Positions 8,088-64,000 of a stretch of 64,000 nt of DNA are shown here, piece by piece. The first letter of the stretch is position 1; each line of letters starts with the position of its first letter. The position numbers were made by a program, and so were the translations under genes. The notes under the pieces are model-generated. The model did not search any database and was not told the DNA's origin. It saw only the letters and a list, made by a program, of their open reading frames with translations. This DNA is from Tildeniella torsiva UHER 1998/13D (GTDB lineage Bacteria; Cyanobacteriota; Cyanobacteriia; Phormidesmidales; Phormidesmidaceae): positions 1-64,000 of the forward strand of contig JAHHIH010000002.1 in the NCBI GenBank assembly GCA_019358835.1, read 5' to 3'.

Positions 8088-8381
8088 CTACTCCAGCAGG
8101 ATGGTTTTGGTCATGATCACCATCCACTGGGCGGGGGCGGCCCCTTCGGCGCTGGGCGGCACGGGGATGGGGTCGCTCCAGTCGTTGGGGTCGGCGTAGC
8201 CGAGGGCATGGAGGATTTTGATGGTGCGGTCTAGGGCGGCGAGGCTGCCGTAGAGCATGTGGCGCACTTTCTCGGGAGTTAGGGGTCGGCTCCCTTTGCT
8301 GTTTGCGCCAGATCTAGGCGGCAGCGGTAGGGAACCGGCCTCTGGGTTGTCGTTGGCGTCTGGTTCGAGATATTCAAACAT
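8088..8381 (-). CDS. Conserved small cyanobacterial protein, copy 1
   Basis: 97-aa protein of unknown function with a paralogue at 33110-33388. Shared blocks are the N-terminal MFEYLEPDA, a variable Pro-rich linker, the core VRH.LYGSLA..DRTIKILHA.GYADPNDWSDPIPVP, and the C-terminal WMVI.TKT.L.E. No signal peptide or membrane segment. It is preceded by a structured leader of about 220 nt and a promoter, both conserved in the second copy, so expression is probably controlled in the 5' UTR. The shadow of conservation (variable linker, fixed core) supports it being a true protein. Confidence 0.8.
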   Translation of the reverse strand: MFEYLEPDANDNPEAGSLPLPPRSGANSKGSRPLTPEKVRHMLYGSLAALDRTIKILHALGYADPNDWSDPIPVPPSAEGAAPAQWMVIMTKTILLE

Positions 8382-8603
8382 CGGTTCTGTTTTCCTTTTT
8401 TGGGTTGAGGAAGACAGAACGCGAAAACCCTAGCCACCCGCAGTTGAAGTGCAAACTGGAGTGACTAGGGTACGATCTCCCTAGCCTCGCAATCTGCTCG
8501 GTAGATTTGCGGGGTTAGCTGTCTGTTGGTGCTGGAACACCTTCAGGCAGCGCCAAAGTTTTCGAGTTCTGTGTGGCCACCGTTCTGCTCAAACGGCTTA
8601 ATG
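8382..8603 (-). promoter_or_regulatory. Structured 5' leader RNA, candidate riboswitch, copy 1
   Basis: Leader of the small ORF at 8088. Helices: closing helix 8558-8564 + 8566-8571 with 8422-8428 + 8415-8420 (13 bp, one mismatch); hairpin A 8544-8551/8518-8525; hairpin B 8503-8514/8485-8495; hairpin C 8465-8470/8428-8433, followed in the transcript by TTTTCG. The last closing strand (8415-8420) can alternatively pair with 8385-8390 in a hairpin (8385-8419) that hides the AGGAA ribosome-binding sequence. All helices recur in the copy at 33389-33611; in hairpin A the arms change together. I do not recognise a known riboswitch class. Some pairs are G-U only if read on the plus strand, so strand is assigned from the promoter, not from pairing alone. 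Confidence 0.65.
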
Positions 8604-8607
8604 GATG

Positions 8608-8636
8608 ATGATAGTGGTGCGATCGCTCTCCGTCAA
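8608..8636 (-). promoter_or_regulatory. Sigma70-type promoter of small-ORF cassette, copy 1
   Basis: On the minus strand TTGACG (8636-8631), a 17-nt spacer, then TATCAT (8613-8608). The copy at 33616-33644 has TTGACG, 17 nt, TATTCT. Transcription would start near 8602, exactly where the structured leader begins. Confidence 0.7.
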
Positions 8637-8852: not shown

Positions 8853-10247
8853 GTGAATAGCCAAAAATCATTACGAAAAACAATGCTCAATGTGACGAAG
8901 CATGACATCAATCCAATCATTCAAATATCAAAGAGGCTGGATCCCAGTGCTGACCTTGCACAAATGAGTGGCTGGGGAATATTATTTTTGGTTTGTGGTG
9001 CATTAGCGGGGCAGTCTGAAAAAAGAATTTTGAAGAATGAGGCAAGAGTTATAAAGCCTGAAACTATTGACGAAGCTAATACCATAAAATTTTCTAAATA
9101 CATCAAGACTTGGTCGCAAAACACAGCTGCTCAAATGCTGGCGAAAAAGAGGATAAATGACTTTGGAGTCAAAATAGCTAATCGCCAAATTCGCGATAAT
9201 TTAATCTCATATTTTTCAATGGCTATCATGCTAGATAGCTTGGGTAGCTCAAGTATGGAGGAGTTTGTTGAGTTAAGGAACTGGGTAGAAGATAATGATC
9301 TAGGATGGGCTGGGATGTTTTTCGGTGCAGGTCTTTTATTAAGCGAGGATTCAGAAGTAAGATGGGACGATTGGAGTTCTTCTATTATAAGCATTAGTAA
9401 TTCTACAAAGTCGCAGGTGAAAGAACTATTTGATAGCTACTCCTCACTTCAAAATCTGCAAAACGCTATACGAATACTTCATAAATCTCAGAAAGCTTTT
9501 CGATTTTCAGCAAATACCCTCTTGGCAGACATTGCCCTTTTTGGACTGGCATTTGATGTGCTTGATAGCGCATACGCTGTTGAGATCCTTTCAGAAACTA
9601 GGCTTCCACATAGAGGCTATCCTATTGCACGTACTGCCTTTGAAGCTGCGCAACAAGCTATGGTTTTAGCAACTCAGGAGAACTATGCTTTAGCAGGAGC
9701 ACGGGCTTGGATTTATTTCTGCAAAAAAGATAGTGAATGGCTTGCCCAATCATGTCCTGAGGGTTCTGGCATTAACAATCGAGAAGATGCAGAAATTTGG
9801 TTTAAAGAGAAACTTGCTGAAATGTTAGTCACATGGGGAGAGTTCTCGCCTGGTAAGCAGATCCTAATTTCTAATGCCGTAGATCTTTTAAATAAGCAAT
9901 CTCGACGTCCTGATAATTGGCTCGGTCAAAGTATGGGAAGTCTACAGGATGAAGCTTATAAAAAAATAGCAAAGTTTTTTGGCAATGATATAGTGGAGGG
10001 CAGTGTTGAAATGAATCGCTCTATATATAGCCGCCTCTCAAAGGAAACTCATGCCAGAGCAAGATTAGAACCTGTTTCTTTTGGGCTTGGCGCTGATGGC
10101 TTCATAAATGTTGAGTTTGCCACTCGTGACACGGAAGTTAACTCAAAGTCAGTATCATTAAGCACGGCTTTGTCTGTACAAGAAGCTGCTATGTCATTGG
10201 TTTATCGTATGAATTCAAAAACTGATAATCATGATGAAATTGATTGA
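8853..10247 (+). CDS. Unrecognised 464-aa protein of AT-rich accessory island
   Basis: I do not recognise this family with confidence. It is a largely helical soluble protein without signal peptide. The segment SAYAVEILSETRLPHRGYPIARTAFEAAQQ and the later NRSIYSRLSKETHARAR resemble helical proteins of the DUF5677 kind often seen near defence genes; this is a weak resemblance from memory. Start is GTG 8853, with ATG 8883 as the alternative. Codon use and AT content differ sharply from the flanking GC-rich genes, a sign of transfer. An AbiU2-like HEPN gene follows 259 bases downstream on the same strand; the gap contains no gene. Confidence 0.7.
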   Translation: MNSQKSLRKTMLNVTKHDINPIIQISKRLDPSADLAQMSGWGILFLVCGALAGQSEKRILKNEARVIKPETIDEANTIKFSKYIKTWSQNTAAQMLAKKRINDFGVKIANRQIRDNLISYFSMAIMLDSLGSSSMEEFVELRNWVEDNDLGWAGMFFGAGLLLSEDSEVRWDDWSSSIISISNSTKSQVKELFDSYSSLQNLQNAIRILHKSQKAFRFSANTLLADIALFGLAFDVLDSAYAVEILSETRLPHRGYPIARTAFEAAQQAMVLATQENYALAGARAWIYFCKKDSEWLAQSCPEGSGINNREDAEIWFKEKLAEMLVTWGEFSPGKQILISNAVDLLNKQSRRPDNWLGQSMGSLQDEAYKKIAKFFGNDIVEGSVEMNRSIYSRLSKETHARARLEPVSFGLGADGFINVEFATRDTEVNSKSVSLSTALSVQEAAMSLVYRMNSKTDNHDEID

Positions 10248-33109: not shown

Positions 33110-33388
33110 TTACTCAATCAGCAGGGTTTTGGTCAAAATGACCATCCAGGTCTGAGCTCTGCTGGGCGATCCTGTCTCGACGGTGTTGGCGGGCACGGGG
33201 ATGGGGTCGCTCCAGTCGTTGGGGTCTGCATAGCCGTAGGCGTGGAGGATTTTGATCGTGCGATCAATTCCGGCTAGGCTGCCGTAGAGCAGGTGCCGCA
33301 CCCGCTCGGGGCGGGGCTGAGGCGTTGCAGAGTGAGACGGCGGAATGTTCGACGCGCCACTGGCGTCGGGTTCGAGATATTCAAACAT
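33110..33388 (-). CDS. Conserved small cyanobacterial protein, copy 2
   Basis: 92-aa paralogue of the protein at 8088-8381. Identical blocks include MFEYLEPDA, the core IDRTIKILHA.GYADPNDWSDPIPVP and the end WMVI.TKT.L.E; the linker after the first block is different. ATG 33388 follows the same leader as copy 1; the frame runs upstream to 33490 but that part is the leader. Function unknown. Confidence 0.8.
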   Translation of the reverse strand: MFEYLEPDASGASNIPPSHSATPQPRPERVRHLLYGSLAGIDRTIKILHAYGYADPNDWSDPIPVPANTVETGSPSRAQTWMVILTKTLLIE

Positions 33389-33611
33389 CGGTTCTGTGTT
33401 CCTTCTATGGGTTTGAGGAAGACAGAACACGAAAACCCTAGCGCCCGCAGCTGAGGTGCAAACTGGGGGAGCTAGGGTACGATCGACCATAGCCCGGCAA
33501 TCTGCTGAGTAGATTTGCGGGGTTAGCTGTTCGTTGGTGTGCCACCACCTTCGGACAGCGCCAAAGTTTTCGAGTTCTGCATGGTCGCCGGTCGGGTTGA
33601 ACGGCTTAATG
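33389..33611 (-). promoter_or_regulatory. Structured 5' leader RNA, candidate riboswitch, copy 2
   Basis: Same architecture and almost the same length as copy 1. Closing helix 33566-33572 + 33574-33579 with 33430-33436 + 33423-33428; hairpin A 33552-33559/33526-33533, whose arms differ from copy 1 at paired positions; hairpin B 33511-33522/33493-33503; hairpin C 33471-33477/33436-33442; ribosome-site hairpin 33416-33427/33392-33403, mutually exclusive with the closing helix. The block CAGAACTCGAAAACTTTGG of hairpin A's flank is identical in both copies, and might hold a binding site. Confidence 0.65.
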
Positions 33612-33615
33612 TAAG

Positions 33616-33644
33616 AGAATACTGGTACAGACGCTCGGCGTCAA
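33616..33644 (-). promoter_or_regulatory. Sigma70-type promoter of small-ORF cassette, copy 2
   Basis: TTGACG (33644-33639), 17-nt spacer, TATTCT (33621-33616) on the minus strand, in register with copy 1. Similarity between the two loci ends about seven bases upstream of the -35 box (GTGGAG), where the AT-rich insert begins. Confidence 0.7.
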
Positions 33645-33950: not shown

Positions 33951-35564
33951 ATGACAGAGCAGATTCATATTAGAGACTTACTTCTCAATAAAGGCTTTTT
34001 CCCTGAAGTTTTACCACCTTGCTTTGATAGTGAGAATTTGGCCGCAAGCTTTGAGGGAAAGACTCAAGATATAGAAGCGCGGAAGTTCCATAATCGGTCA
34101 ACAGATTACGTTCGCTATAGCGGTACAAAACATGACGGTCATCGGAGAGCTTATGGAACAGTAAATCCTATTCCTTATTTCAATGCTTGCCAGTTTATCT
34201 TCAGCAATTGGGAAATATTTGAGACTAAGTTTAAGTCATCGAAGCTGTCATTAGATAAAGTCAGATTAGGCCGCGACACAGAGGATCGAGCTATTATTGT
34301 TCCGACTTTGAGCGAGCTAACAGATCGAATATCATCTCAGCTCCGTTTTTCACCTTACATATTGAAAACCGATATTGCGCAGTTTTTCCCAAGCATCTAC
34401 ACTCATGCCGTGTCTTGGGTGGCCCATGGTCGTGATGTTGCTAAAGCCAATCTTAAACATAATTCTACCGCTGCAACGTTCAATGCATTTGACTGGTTCA
34501 CTCAGCAATGCCAAAGTGGTCAAACTAGAGGAGTGACTGTTGGTCCTGACTCATTTAGGATTTTTGCTGAATTTATAAGCTGCGAAATTGACAATCAACT
34601 TCTCGAAAGGATAAACAACATAGACCCTCATATAATCATTGGGGGAGTTCGACACGTTGATGACTTTTATATTGGAGTAAGAAGCGAAGTCGATGCGGCA
34701 GTGGTTCTGTCGGTTCTGCGCGATGTTCTACAAACATATGAACTCCAGATCAACGATACTAAGACGAAAATAATTAGCGGTCTTGAGGCATTCGATGATG
34801 TGTGGGCTCAAGAACTCAGGACTATATCGCTCGAAGTGTGGTCGGGTAAGTACTCGTATGCAATTGACAAAGCACATGAAGTTGCAAAGTCAATCAAATC
34901 ACAGAGCCCGATGAAATTAATCTTAAGACGTCTTGATGTAGCAAGATGCTATAGCTCAAATTCATGGGAAAGCATTGAGGCTATGCTTCAGCGTGTTTTG
35001 TGGCACTACGAGCATTGTACTGACTATGTCTGCCTTCTACTAACGAAGAGATTCGCGATACAACAGAGTTATGATCAAGAAGGTTGGTCAGAGACGGTAG
35101 CAATGTTGATCAAAAGACATTTGACATTCAATCAACACCATGAAATAGCATGGCTTCTGTGGACGGCCTTCGTATGCGATTTACAGCTTGACGAAGACCT
35201 CATATCCCAAGTGAGTAAGATGCAAAACTCACACCTGCGTGCGCTGATCATCGCTGCTTATCAAAAAGGTAAGTTAAATAAAAAGCCGCCTATTACACTT
35301 GGAAGCAGCCTCTCGACATCTGATTCAAATTGGCTCCATAATCTCGTGGGAAAGTCATCAGGCTACTCCAAAGCCAGATTTTCTGGCGACTTTGCAGATG
35401 AGTTTGAACATCTTGCAGAGAAAAAGGTTGAGCTTATAAACTTTGACAAGCATATGACATCTGTCTCGAGATCTAACAAAGCAGCGATAAGTTCGTCGAA
35501 GTACGGCTACGATGCTCAGGAGGATGTAAACGAAGACGAGATTGATTTTAGTCTTCAATTCTAG
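33951..35564 (+). CDS. Abi/UG-type reverse transcriptase (DRT-like)
   Basis: 537-aa RNA-directed DNA polymerase-like protein. Motif A is KTDIAQFFPSIYTH (Asp141), motif B TRGVTVGPDSFRIFAEF replaces the PQG of retroviral and intron enzymes, and motif C is RHVDDFYIGV (Asp237-Asp238), followed by motif D INDTKTKI. The GP-S-R-AE form of motif B and the RYVDD-like motif C are typical of abortive-infection and unknown-group enzymes (AbiA, AbiK, DRT) that defend against phage. The C-terminal ~230 residues are helical and unassigned. No maturase, integrase or retron marks. The gene is AT-rich compared with its surroundings. I cannot assign a DRT subtype from sequence alone. Confidence 0.8.
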   Translation: MTEQIHIRDLLLNKGFFPEVLPPCFDSENLAASFEGKTQDIEARKFHNRSTDYVRYSGTKHDGHRRAYGTVNPIPYFNACQFIFSNWEIFETKFKSSKLSLDKVRLGRDTEDRAIIVPTLSELTDRISSQLRFSPYILKTDIAQFFPSIYTHAVSWVAHGRDVAKANLKHNSTAATFNAFDWFTQQCQSGQTRGVTVGPDSFRIFAEFISCEIDNQLLERINNIDPHIIIGGVRHVDDFYIGVRSEVDAAVVLSVLRDVLQTYELQINDTKTKIISGLEAFDDVWAQELRTISLEVWSGKYSYAIDKAHEVAKSIKSQSPMKLILRRLDVARCYSSNSWESIEAMLQRVLWHYEHCTDYVCLLLTKRFAIQQSYDQEGWSETVAMLIKRHLTFNQHHEIAWLLWTAFVCDLQLDEDLISQVSKMQNSHLRALIIAAYQKGKLNKKPPITLGSSLSTSDSNWLHNLVGKSSGYSKARFSGDFADEFEHLAEKKVELINFDKHMTSVSRSNKAAISSSKYGYDAQEDVNEDEIDFSLQF

Positions 35565-59758: not shown

Positions 59759-62131
59759 ATGGCAACCGATTTTCTCCCCATTCCCGGCTGGGTGTCTTGG
59801 GAAAACCAGGGCGCAGGCATCGCCGTGGCAGACCTAGACGGCAACGGCAGACCGGATCTAGTCATGTTTCAAATCGATAATCCCCCTGGTGCTAACCAGG
59901 GGTTTTACAAGGTCGGCAAAAACTTAGATACCGCTGGCACCGTAACCGGGGGATGGAGCGATTGGATCGCCGTGCCCGACTGGTTTGCTTGGGAGAACCA
60001 GGGCGCAGATATTGCGATCGCCGATCTCAACAACGATGGCCAGCCAGAGCTAATTATCTTCCAGATCGACAGCCCGCCTGGTGCCAACCAGGGCTACTAC
60101 CGCATCGGCTGGAACCTAGATGGCAACGGCAATGTGACCGGGGGCTGGAGCGACTGGATTGCCGTGCCCGACTGGTTTGCCTTTGATAACCAGGGCGGCG
60201 GTATTGCTGTAGCCGATCTGAACAACGATGGCCGCCCCGAGCTGGTGGTGTTTCAGGTGGATAGCCCAGAGGGGTTGAACCAGGGCTATTACCGGGTCGG
60301 ATGGAGTCTTGGCCTCGATGGTTTAGTGACCGGCGGCTGGAGCGACTGGATCGCGGTGGATTGGTTCTCTTGGGACAACCAGGATGCCAGCATTGCGATC
60401 GCCGATCTCGATGGCAACGGTCGCCCTGAACTGGTGGTCTTTCAAATCGACAATCCCCCTGGTGCCAACCAGGCCTTCTACCAAATTGGCTGGGATCTCG
60501 ACGCCACCGGCAAAGTCGCGGGCGGCTGGAGCAACTGGACGGCGATTCCCGACTGGTTCTCCTGGGAAAATCAGGGAGCGGGGGTGGCGATCGCCGCCCT
60601 CGGCCCCAATCAGCGCCCCGAACTGATTTTGGCTCACATTGACGCGCCACCCCAGGTCAACCAGGGCTATTACCGCACTGTTGAGCTGTCCCTGGATCTA
60701 GACACCGCCGCCACCGAGGGCATTTGGCGATTGCTGCCCGACACCTCGCAAATCCTCGCGATCCATGCCGCGCTGTTGCGCACGGGCAAGGTGCTGTTCT
60801 TCTCAGGTTCGAGCAACAACCCCGATAACGCCAACGGCGAATTTGGCAGCGTCGTGTGGGACTACAGCCAAAACACTTTCCAGTTCCCCGACACCCCCGC
60901 CGACTTCTTTTGCGCTGGGCACTCTTTTTTGCCGGACGGTCGGTTGCTGGTGGCGGGCGGCACCGAGGAATACGACTTTGGGCATCCCTTCATCGGGCTG
61001 CGCGACGCCTACACCTTTAACCCGCTCACCGAGCAGTGGGATAAGCAGCCCTCGATGGCCGACGGTCGCTGGTATCCGACCCTCGTCACCCTGGCCGATG
61101 GGCGAGTCTTTACCGTGTCGGGCTTAGACAAAGACGGCAACCTCAACCAGACCGCAGAAATTTACCAAGACGGCACGGGCTGGACGACGTTGCCCCAGGC
61201 CCTCAACCAGCGCTACCCCCTCTATGCCCACCTGTTTTTGCTGCGCGATGGCCGCATCTTTTATTCTGGCGCTCAGTATGGCACCAACGAAGGCACCCCG
61301 CTCAGCCTGATCGATCTGCAAAGCAACACTGTGACGGCGGTTCCTGGGTTGAGCGAACCCAACCACCGCAACCAGGCGGCCAGCGTGCTGCTGCCCCCGG
61401 TGCAGGCGCAAAAAGTCATGATTATGGGCGGTGGGGTTCTGGGCGGTGGCGCGGCTCACCAGCATGCCCAGGGGGCCACCGACAACGTGGATATCGTCGA
61501 TCTCACCGCTGCCGCGCCGGTCTACCAGGCCGCGCCAGCGTTGCACCACGCCCGCACCCATGCCATGGCCGTCACCCTGCCCGATCGCACCGTTCTAGTC
61601 TGCGGCGGCAGTGGGGCCGACGAATCGCGGGCTGAGGCCACCCTGGAAGCCGAAATCTACGCCCCCACCACCAATACCTGGACGGAAGTTGCGGCGGCCC
61701 GAGTGCCCCGCCTATACCACTCCGTTGCCATCCTCTTGCCCGATGGTCGGGTGATGACGGCGGGGTCTAACCCAGCCCGCAAAGACGAAGAACTGCGCCT
61801 GGAGATGTACTATCCGCCCTATCTGTTTAAGGGCTCGCGTCCAGTAATCACAGCGGCTCCCCAGACCGTTGCCTATGGGGGTGCGATGGAAATTCAAACG
61901 CCCCAGGCGTCGTCGATTCAGTGGGTTAGCCTGATCAAACCGGCTGCCCCCACCCACACCCTCGATACCGAGCAACGGCTGGTGGAATTATCGTTTACGC
62001 AGATCGGCGGCGATCGCCTCAAAATTGACCTGATCGACGAACCCAACCTGGCTCCGTCGGGCTGGTACATGCTGTTCGTCACCGATCGGCAGGGCGTTCC
62101 TTCGGTGGCCAGATGGGTGCAGCTCGCTTAA
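59759..62131 (+). CDS. Galactose-oxidase-like protein with FG-GAP-type repeats
   Basis: 790 aa. Residues 1-~310 are five tandem ~60-residue repeats (…WFSWENQGAGIAIADLDGNG.PELVVFQIDNPPGANQ…) with Ca-binding-like DxDGNG loops, then a Kelch beta-propeller and a C-terminal DUF1929 domain as in galactose oxidase/GlxA radical-copper oxidases. All copper-site residues have counterparts: Cys385 (FCAGHS) for the Tyr-Cys crosslink, Tyr439 (RWYPT), Tyr653-His654 (RLYHS) and His733 (THTLDT). ATG 59759 has GAGG six bases upstream; the frame opens at 59696. No signal peptide is visible at either start. Confidence 0.88.
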   Translation: MATDFLPIPGWVSWENQGAGIAVADLDGNGRPDLVMFQIDNPPGANQGFYKVGKNLDTAGTVTGGWSDWIAVPDWFAWENQGADIAIADLNNDGQPELIIFQIDSPPGANQGYYRIGWNLDGNGNVTGGWSDWIAVPDWFAFDNQGGGIAVADLNNDGRPELVVFQVDSPEGLNQGYYRVGWSLGLDGLVTGGWSDWIAVDWFSWDNQDASIAIADLDGNGRPELVVFQIDNPPGANQAFYQIGWDLDATGKVAGGWSNWTAIPDWFSWENQGAGVAIAALGPNQRPELILAHIDAPPQVNQGYYRTVELSLDLDTAATEGIWRLLPDTSQILAIHAALLRTGKVLFFSGSSNNPDNANGEFGSVVWDYSQNTFQFPDTPADFFCAGHSFLPDGRLLVAGGTEEYDFGHPFIGLRDAYTFNPLTEQWDKQPSMADGRWYPTLVTLADGRVFTVSGLDKDGNLNQTAEIYQDGTGWTTLPQALNQRYPLYAHLFLLRDGRIFYSGAQYGTNEGTPLSLIDLQSNTVTAVPGLSEPNHRNQAASVLLPPVQAQKVMIMGGGVLGGGAAHQHAQGATDNVDIVDLTAAAPVYQAAPALHHARTHAMAVTLPDRTVLVCGGSGADESRAEATLEAEIYAPTTNTWTEVAAARVPRLYHSVAILLPDGRVMTAGSNPARKDEELRLEMYYPPYLFKGSRPVITAAPQTVAYGGAMEIQTPQASSIQWVSLIKPAAPTHTLDTEQRLVELSFTQIGGDRLKIDLIDEPNLAPSGWYMLFVTDRQGVPSVARWVQLA

Positions 62132-63933: not shown

Positions 63934-64000
63934 CTACTCTCTCGGCAAAAACTTCACCAACGCTTTCATGAACTCATGGGGCTGAAATTGCAGAGGGCGA
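63934..64000 (-). CDS. 3' end of an unidentified gene
   Basis: Minus-strand frame entering from the right edge, ending at TAG (63936-63934) after QPHEFMKALVKFLPRE. Only about 22 codons are visible; no family can be named. Confidence 0.35.
   Translation of the reverse strand, partial: RPLQFQPHEFMKALVKFLPRE

Follow-up and report, generated by a model that had tools for sequence, protein, structure and literature searches.

A repeated cassette of promoter, structured leader RNA and small-protein gene, with a putative translational switch, at the edge of apparently exchangeable gene slots in Nodosilinea-group cyanobacteria

The window, i.e., the whole stretch of 64,000 nt analysed here, contains two cassettes on the minus strand, at 8088-8636 and 33110-33644 (Table 1). 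An earlier note had described a promoter-leader-ORF cassette at two loci, and both were found where it placed them, with the promoter boxes, spacers and ORFs of 92 and 97 aa as described. The leader is ~225 nt long in both. Cassette similarity begins ~10 nt ahead of the -35 box, and the flanks upstream of that point are dissimilar (by eye). The strand, which the earlier note had assigned by the promoter since the hairpins were ambiguous, is settled as minus: promoter, ribosome-binding site (RBS) and ORF are all encoded there, and on this strand the closing helix varies between G-C, A-U and G-U. Among 85 cassettes of the Nodosilinea set with enough flank, a TTGAC box was present in 81, followed at 17 nt by TANNNT in 76 of these. 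Elsewhere in the window, a tandem repeat of a 192-nt unit (3.3 copies, 59945-60576) lies inside a large ORF.

Table 1. Positions of the two cassettes, of the competing strands in copy 1 and of the neighboring genes in the window.
Feature	Positions	Strand	Remarks
Promoter, copy 1, sigma-70-type	8608-8636	-	TTGACG 8636-8631, 17 nt, TATCAT 8613-8608; read directly
Leader RNA core, copy 1 (start codon included): P1, hairpin P2, inner helices, RBS hairpin	8379-8571	-	R1 212.9 bits (not independent, R1 being built from copy 1 and 11 other copies)
CAGAAC, outer P1, 5' strand (partner in state A)	8566-8571	-
GUUCUG, shared strand	8415-8420	-	Pairs with 8571-8566 (P1) or 8389-8384 (RBS hairpin)
3' strand of RBS hairpin	8384-8396	-	AGGA Shine-Dalgarno 8396-8393 and CAGAAC 8389-8384
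Small-protein ORF, copy 1, 97 aa	8088-8381	-
Promoter, copy 2	33616-33644	-	TTGACG 33644-33639, 17 nt, TATTCT 33621-33616
Leader RNA core, copy 2	33386-33579	-	R1 190.8 bits
Small-protein ORF, copy 2, 92 aa	33110-33388	-
Neighbor of copy 1, divergent, 464 aa	8853-10247	+	DUF5677 E 0.0048, below cut-off; no PADLOC or PDB match
Second ORF of copy-1 slot, 250 aa	10459-11211	+	No PADLOC match
Neighbor of copy 2, divergent: defence reverse transcriptase, DRT6/DRT4-like	33951-35564	+	PADLOC Drt6 E 1.8e-141

The 5.84-Mb genome, a member of the Nodosilinea group, carries 12 leader-ORF copies and four fragments. Promoter and open ORF are intact in 11 of the 12 copies; in the exception, L020, the TTGAC box is lost and the ORF frameshifted. 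The fragments (L021, L022, L023, L024), which include leader pieces without an ORF and one promoter joined to mid-ORF, are decaying cassettes. Past the stop codon, several copies have 21-nt arrays in common, and L010 and L011 share one further gene. Degenerate tandem arrays of this kind lie directly 3' of the ORF in L010, L011, L012, L013, L017 and L019 and occur at many cassette sites; the units are able to form small hairpins. A coding interpretation of the arrays (coiled-coil-like heptads) was also considered, but stops break the frames read.

Among named genomes, Nodosilinea and allied Leptolyngbya-like strains come closest; 118 relatives were confirmed and 80 kept. By blastn the leader is at least partly present in 79 of the 80, two of these with just 24-40 nt. 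R1, a covariance model built from the 12 own leaders, detected the leader in 45 of the 63 family genomes, which represent 12 of its 14 genera, and fuller scoring of 24 genomes gave up to 55 matches in one genome. A second model of 17 pairs (R2), which served the phylum scan only, detected it in 13 of 386 sampled genomes, one weakly (E 4.6e-4), with six candidates scored per genome.

The consensus of the 12 own leaders comprises P1 with 13 pairs, P2, three inner helices and an RBS hairpin of 12 pairs. Paired cells in these leaders amount to 98.5%, as compared with 35.6-49.3% when partners were slid. Two-sided changes were found in five pairs vs. 2.6 for shuffled data, a count as high arising in 13 of 500, and the covariation score was 0.117 vs. 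0.086 (0 of 500 as high); the count of further pair types was not above shuffles (388 of 500 as high). The base-pair swap that had been noticed in hairpin A is real, U-A at 8545/8524 corresponding to C-G at 33553/33532 (column pair 27/49 of A2: UA in five, CG in three, GC in three, other in one), and so is the 13-bp closing helix.

We then compared covariation with a phylogenetic null in which all pairs were tested and substitutions re-placed along the tree in 80 null sets (a test of our own modelled on R-scape rather than R-scape itself). In 53 diverse leaders, thinned from a larger alignment by dropping rows with >10% gaps or ≥78% identity to a kept row, the P2 pairs 25-57, 26-56 and 30-52 exceeded all 80 null sets, 25-57 barely so. 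Other P2, P1 and P5 pairs ranked high, each with E ≥0.8. With 120 leaders (of 121 rows), two P2 pairs passed the null. No single pair outside P2 rose above it in either set. Covariation beyond phylogenetic expectation, on which the earlier note had made its proposal depend, was seen in helix P2 and, pair by pair, in no other helix.

No Rfam match at the gathering threshold was obtained for the window. In E-value mode the leader region gave a match to symR on the opposite strand (8483-8554, plus strand, 28.4 bits vs. a threshold of 61). Among 20 relatives, symR again scored below threshold opposite one leader (L152, 1596-1667, plus strand, 31.0 bits vs. 61) and R1162 antisense on one leader (28.1 vs. 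55), and the sole match above threshold, HIV-1_SD, covers 19 nt at L144 outside the leader. A description of the RNA or the cassette was not found in open-licence PMC full text, as judged by titles and abstract starts. The earlier proposal, a duplicated cassette whose conserved structured RNA falls into no known class, is supported, with copies throughout the genome and Rfam scores on the leader below threshold. The arrangement of a type III toxin-antitoxin system was not seen, as there is a single leader without tandem repeats (by eye) and no Pfam toxin match.

We examined 180 leaders, comprising the 12 own ones, 74 from the 80 loci of Nodosilinea type and 94 others, for the two helices that the shared strand could form, one with the 5' strand of P1 and the other with the segment next to the start codon (Table 1). 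Both are strictly Watson-Crick in 97 leaders; with G-U pairs allowed and the best position taken, 124 leaders have both at 6/6 and 162 have both at 5/6 or better. The shared strand is other than GUUCUG in 31 leaders, of which 10 pair 6/6 both ways with G-U (five of them strictly) and 17 at least 5/6. Plain GUUCUG, used as a control, fits six of the same 31 leaders both ways with G-U, and the search chose the best among many positions; weight is therefore placed on the strict cases only. In these, all three strands have changed together: CAAAGC/GCUUUG/CAAAGC in L174, L177 and L210, CAAAAU/AUUUUG/CAAAAU in L176 and CAGAGC/GCUCUG/CAGAGC in L191, from three genomes (G013, G059 and G020). An overlap of ~3 nt between the two helices is seen by eye in leaders of the CCCAAAAA type (L038-L042, L152-L154). 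Insertions of 40 to ~150 nt, palindromic by eye, are found in the loop of the RBS hairpin in L011, L052, L064, L066, L093, L105 and L120, with the stem kept. The comparison supports one strand having been kept complementary to two partners, and at the sequence level the leader can apparently form the two exclusive folds, one touching the RBS, that are expected of a riboswitch. A second alternative pairing is likely from the modelled folds: in some single-sequence folds CCUAGCC has either of two GGCUAGG segments as its partner, one upstream and one in P1, and a longer P5 appears in the R2 consensus.

We infer that the leader acts as a translational switch. In state A, the 5' CAGAAC would pair with GUUCUG, P1 would have its full length and the RBS would be free. 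In state B, GUUCUG would pair with the CAGAAC by the start codon and bury the RBS, and the longer P5 hairpin may replace P4 and the inner part of P1. State A would presumably be on and state B off, and the trigger could be a metabolite or the small protein itself.

With a metabolite as the trigger, the leader would be a riboswitch in which the ligand steadies P1 and frees the RBS. The mutually exclusive helices fit such a reading, and conserved unpaired stretches such as CUAACCC and UUUGCAC, seen by eye in leaders of 12 genera, could form the ligand pocket. The high copy number also has a parallel in the Downstream-peptide RNAs, for which PMC2864571 gives 634 cyanobacterial examples. However, one and the same protein family, with no recognisable enzyme or transporter, stands behind nearly all leaders, and no Rfam riboswitch was matched. 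We regard a metabolite riboswitch as quite possible, at somewhat short of even odds.

Behind 170 of the 180 leaders lies a member of the same small-protein family; further copies upstream of this ORF family, which the earlier note had named as a condition of its proposal, are present. The start codon falls exactly at the end of the model in 12 own, 69 Nodosilinea-type and 65 other leaders. All ten misses are within the 94 others: four have no 60-aa ORF in the available stretch and six an unrelated frame, with at least two of the latter (L150, L171) frameshifted by eye. Since the protein profile was trained on the proteins of the 80 loci, only the 12 own and the 94 other leaders are independent (12 of 12 and 84 of 94). 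In the phylum samples, six non-own genomes have both leader and protein, and the protein follows directly behind 18 of 18 listed leaders. As in an autogenous leader, a recognised gene behind the RNA was always that of the one protein, the ten remaining leaders having no recognised family ORF.

The ORF is under purifying selection, with a median dN/dS of 0.32 over 2762 overlapping, non-independent pairs (all <1) and 0.32 between the two window copies. AlphaFold predicts a beta-alpha-beta fold (mean pLDDT 78, pTM 0.56), and conserved core residues are present. PDB searches gave no match to the predicted fold at E <0.1 (best 0.11) and none to the sequence (best 0.13). Pfam gave no credible match for 98 family members (best E 0.026) and no toxin family, NCBIfam none for P0001 and P0002, and PHROG none for five members (best 0.1); no phage records were found for P0001. 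Tandem 7-aa repeats (RSSSGVET type, 21 nt) are inserted between the conserved core of the ORF and the C-terminal strand in relatives such as L056, L060, L091 and L097. A distant family member starts at the end of the window (63949-64000) and reaches 64155 on contig C28.

The protein family is distributed more widely than the leader: it was found in 17 of 194 sampled phylum genomes, of which ten are not among the 13 leader genomes (strict filters, six candidates scored per genome). Protein relatives with 32-47% identity occur in nine Nostocales plasmid records, and no defence clue was seen in three annotated neighborhoods of these.

If the small protein were itself the trigger, it would bind its own leader and steady one of the two states. 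Such autoregulation would agree with the pairing of RNA and protein at the 180 loci and at the 18 listed leaders elsewhere, and with the conserved core of the protein. The ten genomes with protein outside the leader set argue against it, and so does the predicted fold, which matched no RNA-binding protein at E <0.1. We hold this reading tentatively, as possible rather than probable.

We next consider the genes beside the cassettes. The gene upstream of the promoter is divergent in all 12 own copies and in 83 of 100 loci with enough flank; of the downstream neighbors, 54 share one orientation and 42 have the opposite one. Among the own divergent neighbors are the reverse transcriptase next to copy 2 (NCBIfam Drt4 at 2.8e-54, short of the cut-off of that model; PDB 9wy8 2.2e-45), Shedu SduA, a full-length, Thermus-like Argonaute (1.2e-67), an HNH protein, a DNA methylase and Thoeris ThsA. 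Three others (L009, L011, L016) belong to no clear family, L017 has a weak ZorA match, the neighbor at L019 is astacin-like, and that at L020 is a pentapeptide-repeat protein. For the Nodosilinea-type set, PADLOC at E ≤1e-5 returned 382 model matches for 61 upstream neighbors (dereplicated divergent, of 65) vs. 27 for 58 downstream neighbors (dereplicated, of 84); these figures are model matches and not proteins, because one protein may match many models. The defence genes found next to Nodosilinea cassettes are reverse transcriptase, Argonaute, Shedu, Thoeris, CBASS and methylases. Pfam assigned SMC/AAA, ThsA_Macro, SMODS, methylase and NACHT families upstream, as well as TPR, WD40 and others, and mostly housekeeping families downstream, with Uma2 (putative restriction endonuclease) in four. 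In other genera the numbers were 23 model matches for 27 upstream vs. 11 for 28 downstream neighbors, with 17 of the 27 upstream genes divergent.

Starting from the defence genes of the genus, an R1 leader was found in the flank (1.5 kb or to the contig end) of the one Shedu gene, of two of three ThsA, two of six SMODS and three of four DRT6 genes (E <1e-100), i.e., eight of 14, a share that is inflated because the families were chosen after being seen beside cassettes. By our estimate (~15 leaders per 6 Mb), ~1% would be expected by chance. Weaker reverse-transcriptase matches had a leader nearby in one of 26 cases, and outside the genus none was found beside three Shedu genes and one ThsA gene. 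At L303 (G043:C12), a 602-aa reverse-transcriptase ORF has two degenerate leaders nearby (46 and 67 bits). The defence link, as judged by these matches, applies to the neighbor sets of the Nodosilinea genus as a whole, and the loci behind the neighbor counts are not independent.

Two cassette sites were followed in five genomes each. At the copy-1 site, the window backbone from 39.5 to 11.37 kb is colinear in four relatives. All four have the orthologs of the two copies in facing orientation at a distance of ~11 kb, an arrangement from which the window differs downstream of copy 1. The promoter-proximal 1.0-1.4 kb differs among the relatives, each with its own ORF of 218-276 aa. Beyond this variable stretch, a small gene of 77-83 aa is common to G045, G031, G034 and G033 beside the backbone, with a second gene (69-124 aa) behind it in three of the four; we take the pair to resemble an antitoxin and a PIN-type toxin. 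In the window, the slot consists of 2.7 kb without similarity to any of the four relatives, and the conserved backbone resumes at ~11372. At the second site (own contig C19), the 2.4-8 kb between the cassette promoter and the resuming backbone are dissimilar in the five genomes, with the exception of 0.3 kb common to the own genome and one relative. At both sites, 1-8 kb next to the promoter differs while the cassette and the outer backbone stay, and genome comparison shows what appears to be exchange of genes at a fixed edge. The own methylase (L014) is the only individually identified defence-type gene at these two sites.

A third site, next to uvrB, was compared in the 25 genomes of the genus that have the gene. 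Cassette and reverse transcriptase are present in the own genome and at L227, partial cassettes at L223, L225, L226 and L230, and none was found in the rest (one without flank). Across 80 loci and 2893 cross-genome pairs, the downstream flank alone is shared in 229 pairs, a number inflated because many of them stem from the 21-nt arrays, the upstream flank alone in eight and both in seven. In another genus, where 325 pairs were examined, L147 and L148 share the downstream flank only.

The two parts of the cassette show discordant histories. The nearest relative by the 5' part agrees with that by the ORF at 29 of 80 loci, as compared with 59 of 80 (ORF) and 39 of 80 (5' part) in odd/even-column controls. 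In 15 pairs with a shared upstream flank, the promoters are 0.89 identical on average vs. a background of 0.73, and in three of these pairs (0.71-0.77) their identity does not exceed that background. Similarity at site S1 is far above background for the ORF and barely above it for the leader; at site S2 both are above. Such discordance would fit recombination within the cassette and is suggestive only.

We favor, with a probability of about 0.7, the reading that the cassette encodes a small beta-alpha-beta protein behind a promoter and a translational RNA switch acting in cis, and that in the Nodosilinea group it forms the fixed edge of an exchangeable slot. The divergent genes upstream, often of defence type, would be replaced between a constant cassette and a constant far backbone, perhaps via homologous recombination inside the repeated cassette.

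The cassette could instead be a regulator or immunity partner of the divergent defence gene, held in place by selection. Its divergent orientation in every own copy, the concentration of defence-model matches on the promoter side, the purifying selection on the ORF and the retention of both cassette and reverse transcriptase at the uvrB site in the own genome and L227 would all be consistent with a partnership. The neighbors, however, are of mechanistically different types, the ORF at site S1 tracks the site more than the promoter does, and the RNA-protein pair also occurs in genera in which no defence link was shown. In addition, the conserved block stops ~10 nt before its own -35 box (by eye), leaving no shared operator that faces the neighbor; this lack of a conserved neighbor-facing element argues against a simple shared divergent operator. 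We consider such a partnership rather unlikely. Unlikely, too, is an extended scheme in which the cassettes are docks: the switch would sense the cell state (perhaps infection), the protein would tune the docked defence gene and recombination would swap genes between docks. A selfish or passive dispersed repeat, whose inverted repeats work as DNA (e.g., as recombination sites) and whose RNA switch has no function, might account for the many copies and fragments, the discordant histories and the exchanged neighbors, but is improbable given the promoter in 81 of 85 cassettes, the low dN/dS, the three-way strand changes with two-sided helix changes, and cassette ends at which no terminal repeats or transposase were noticed (by eye).

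The cassette contributes a structured RNA class and a family of small proteins for which no credible match was obtained in Rfam, Pfam or NCBIfam, along with evolutionary support for a strand-sharing switch in the leader. It also offers a sequence handle for defence genes in this cyanobacterial group: since its divergent neighbor often belongs to a known system, neighbors of unassigned type, such as the 464-aa ORF at 8853, become candidates for new defence systems. The question raised is why a translational switch and a small protein persist at the edge of exchangeable slots.

Several known systems resemble the cassette in part. The glnA and Downstream-peptide RNAs (RF01739, RF01704) are glutamine riboswitches. 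The present leader matches neither family and differs from them in its 13-bp P1, P2, inner helices and competing RBS hairpin. Like the leaders described in PMC2864571, it is a cyanobacterial RNA that precedes small ORFs of no known family (17-100 aa there); the table in that source covers cyanobacteria and marine samples, whereas the RNA reported here comes from Leptolyngbya-like genomes.

In translational riboswitches, two exclusive helices have a strand in common and one of them buries the RBS. Exclusive helices and RBS sequestration are indicated here by sequence comparison, but unlike in such riboswitches a single protein family follows 170 of 180 leaders. Autogenous leaders of the ribosomal-protein type are tied to one protein family, as is the present RNA; they differ from it in that up to dozens of paralogous copies per genome are found here. 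BrxR is a winged-helix WYL protein encoded upstream of BREX on the same transcript, according to PMC9122589. It shares with our cassette the recurrence of a regulator-like gene beside defence systems; here, in contrast to BrxR as described in that source, the protein is small, of predicted beta-alpha-beta fold, encoded divergently and preceded by a putative RNA switch.

Defence hotspots of integrative elements or core-gene anchors have fixed edges and swapped defence cargo. The slots described here appear alike in their fixed edges and exchanged cargo; what sets them apart is that a cassette of RNA plus protein, repeated across the genome, forms one of the edges, so that the same anchor is present at many sites.
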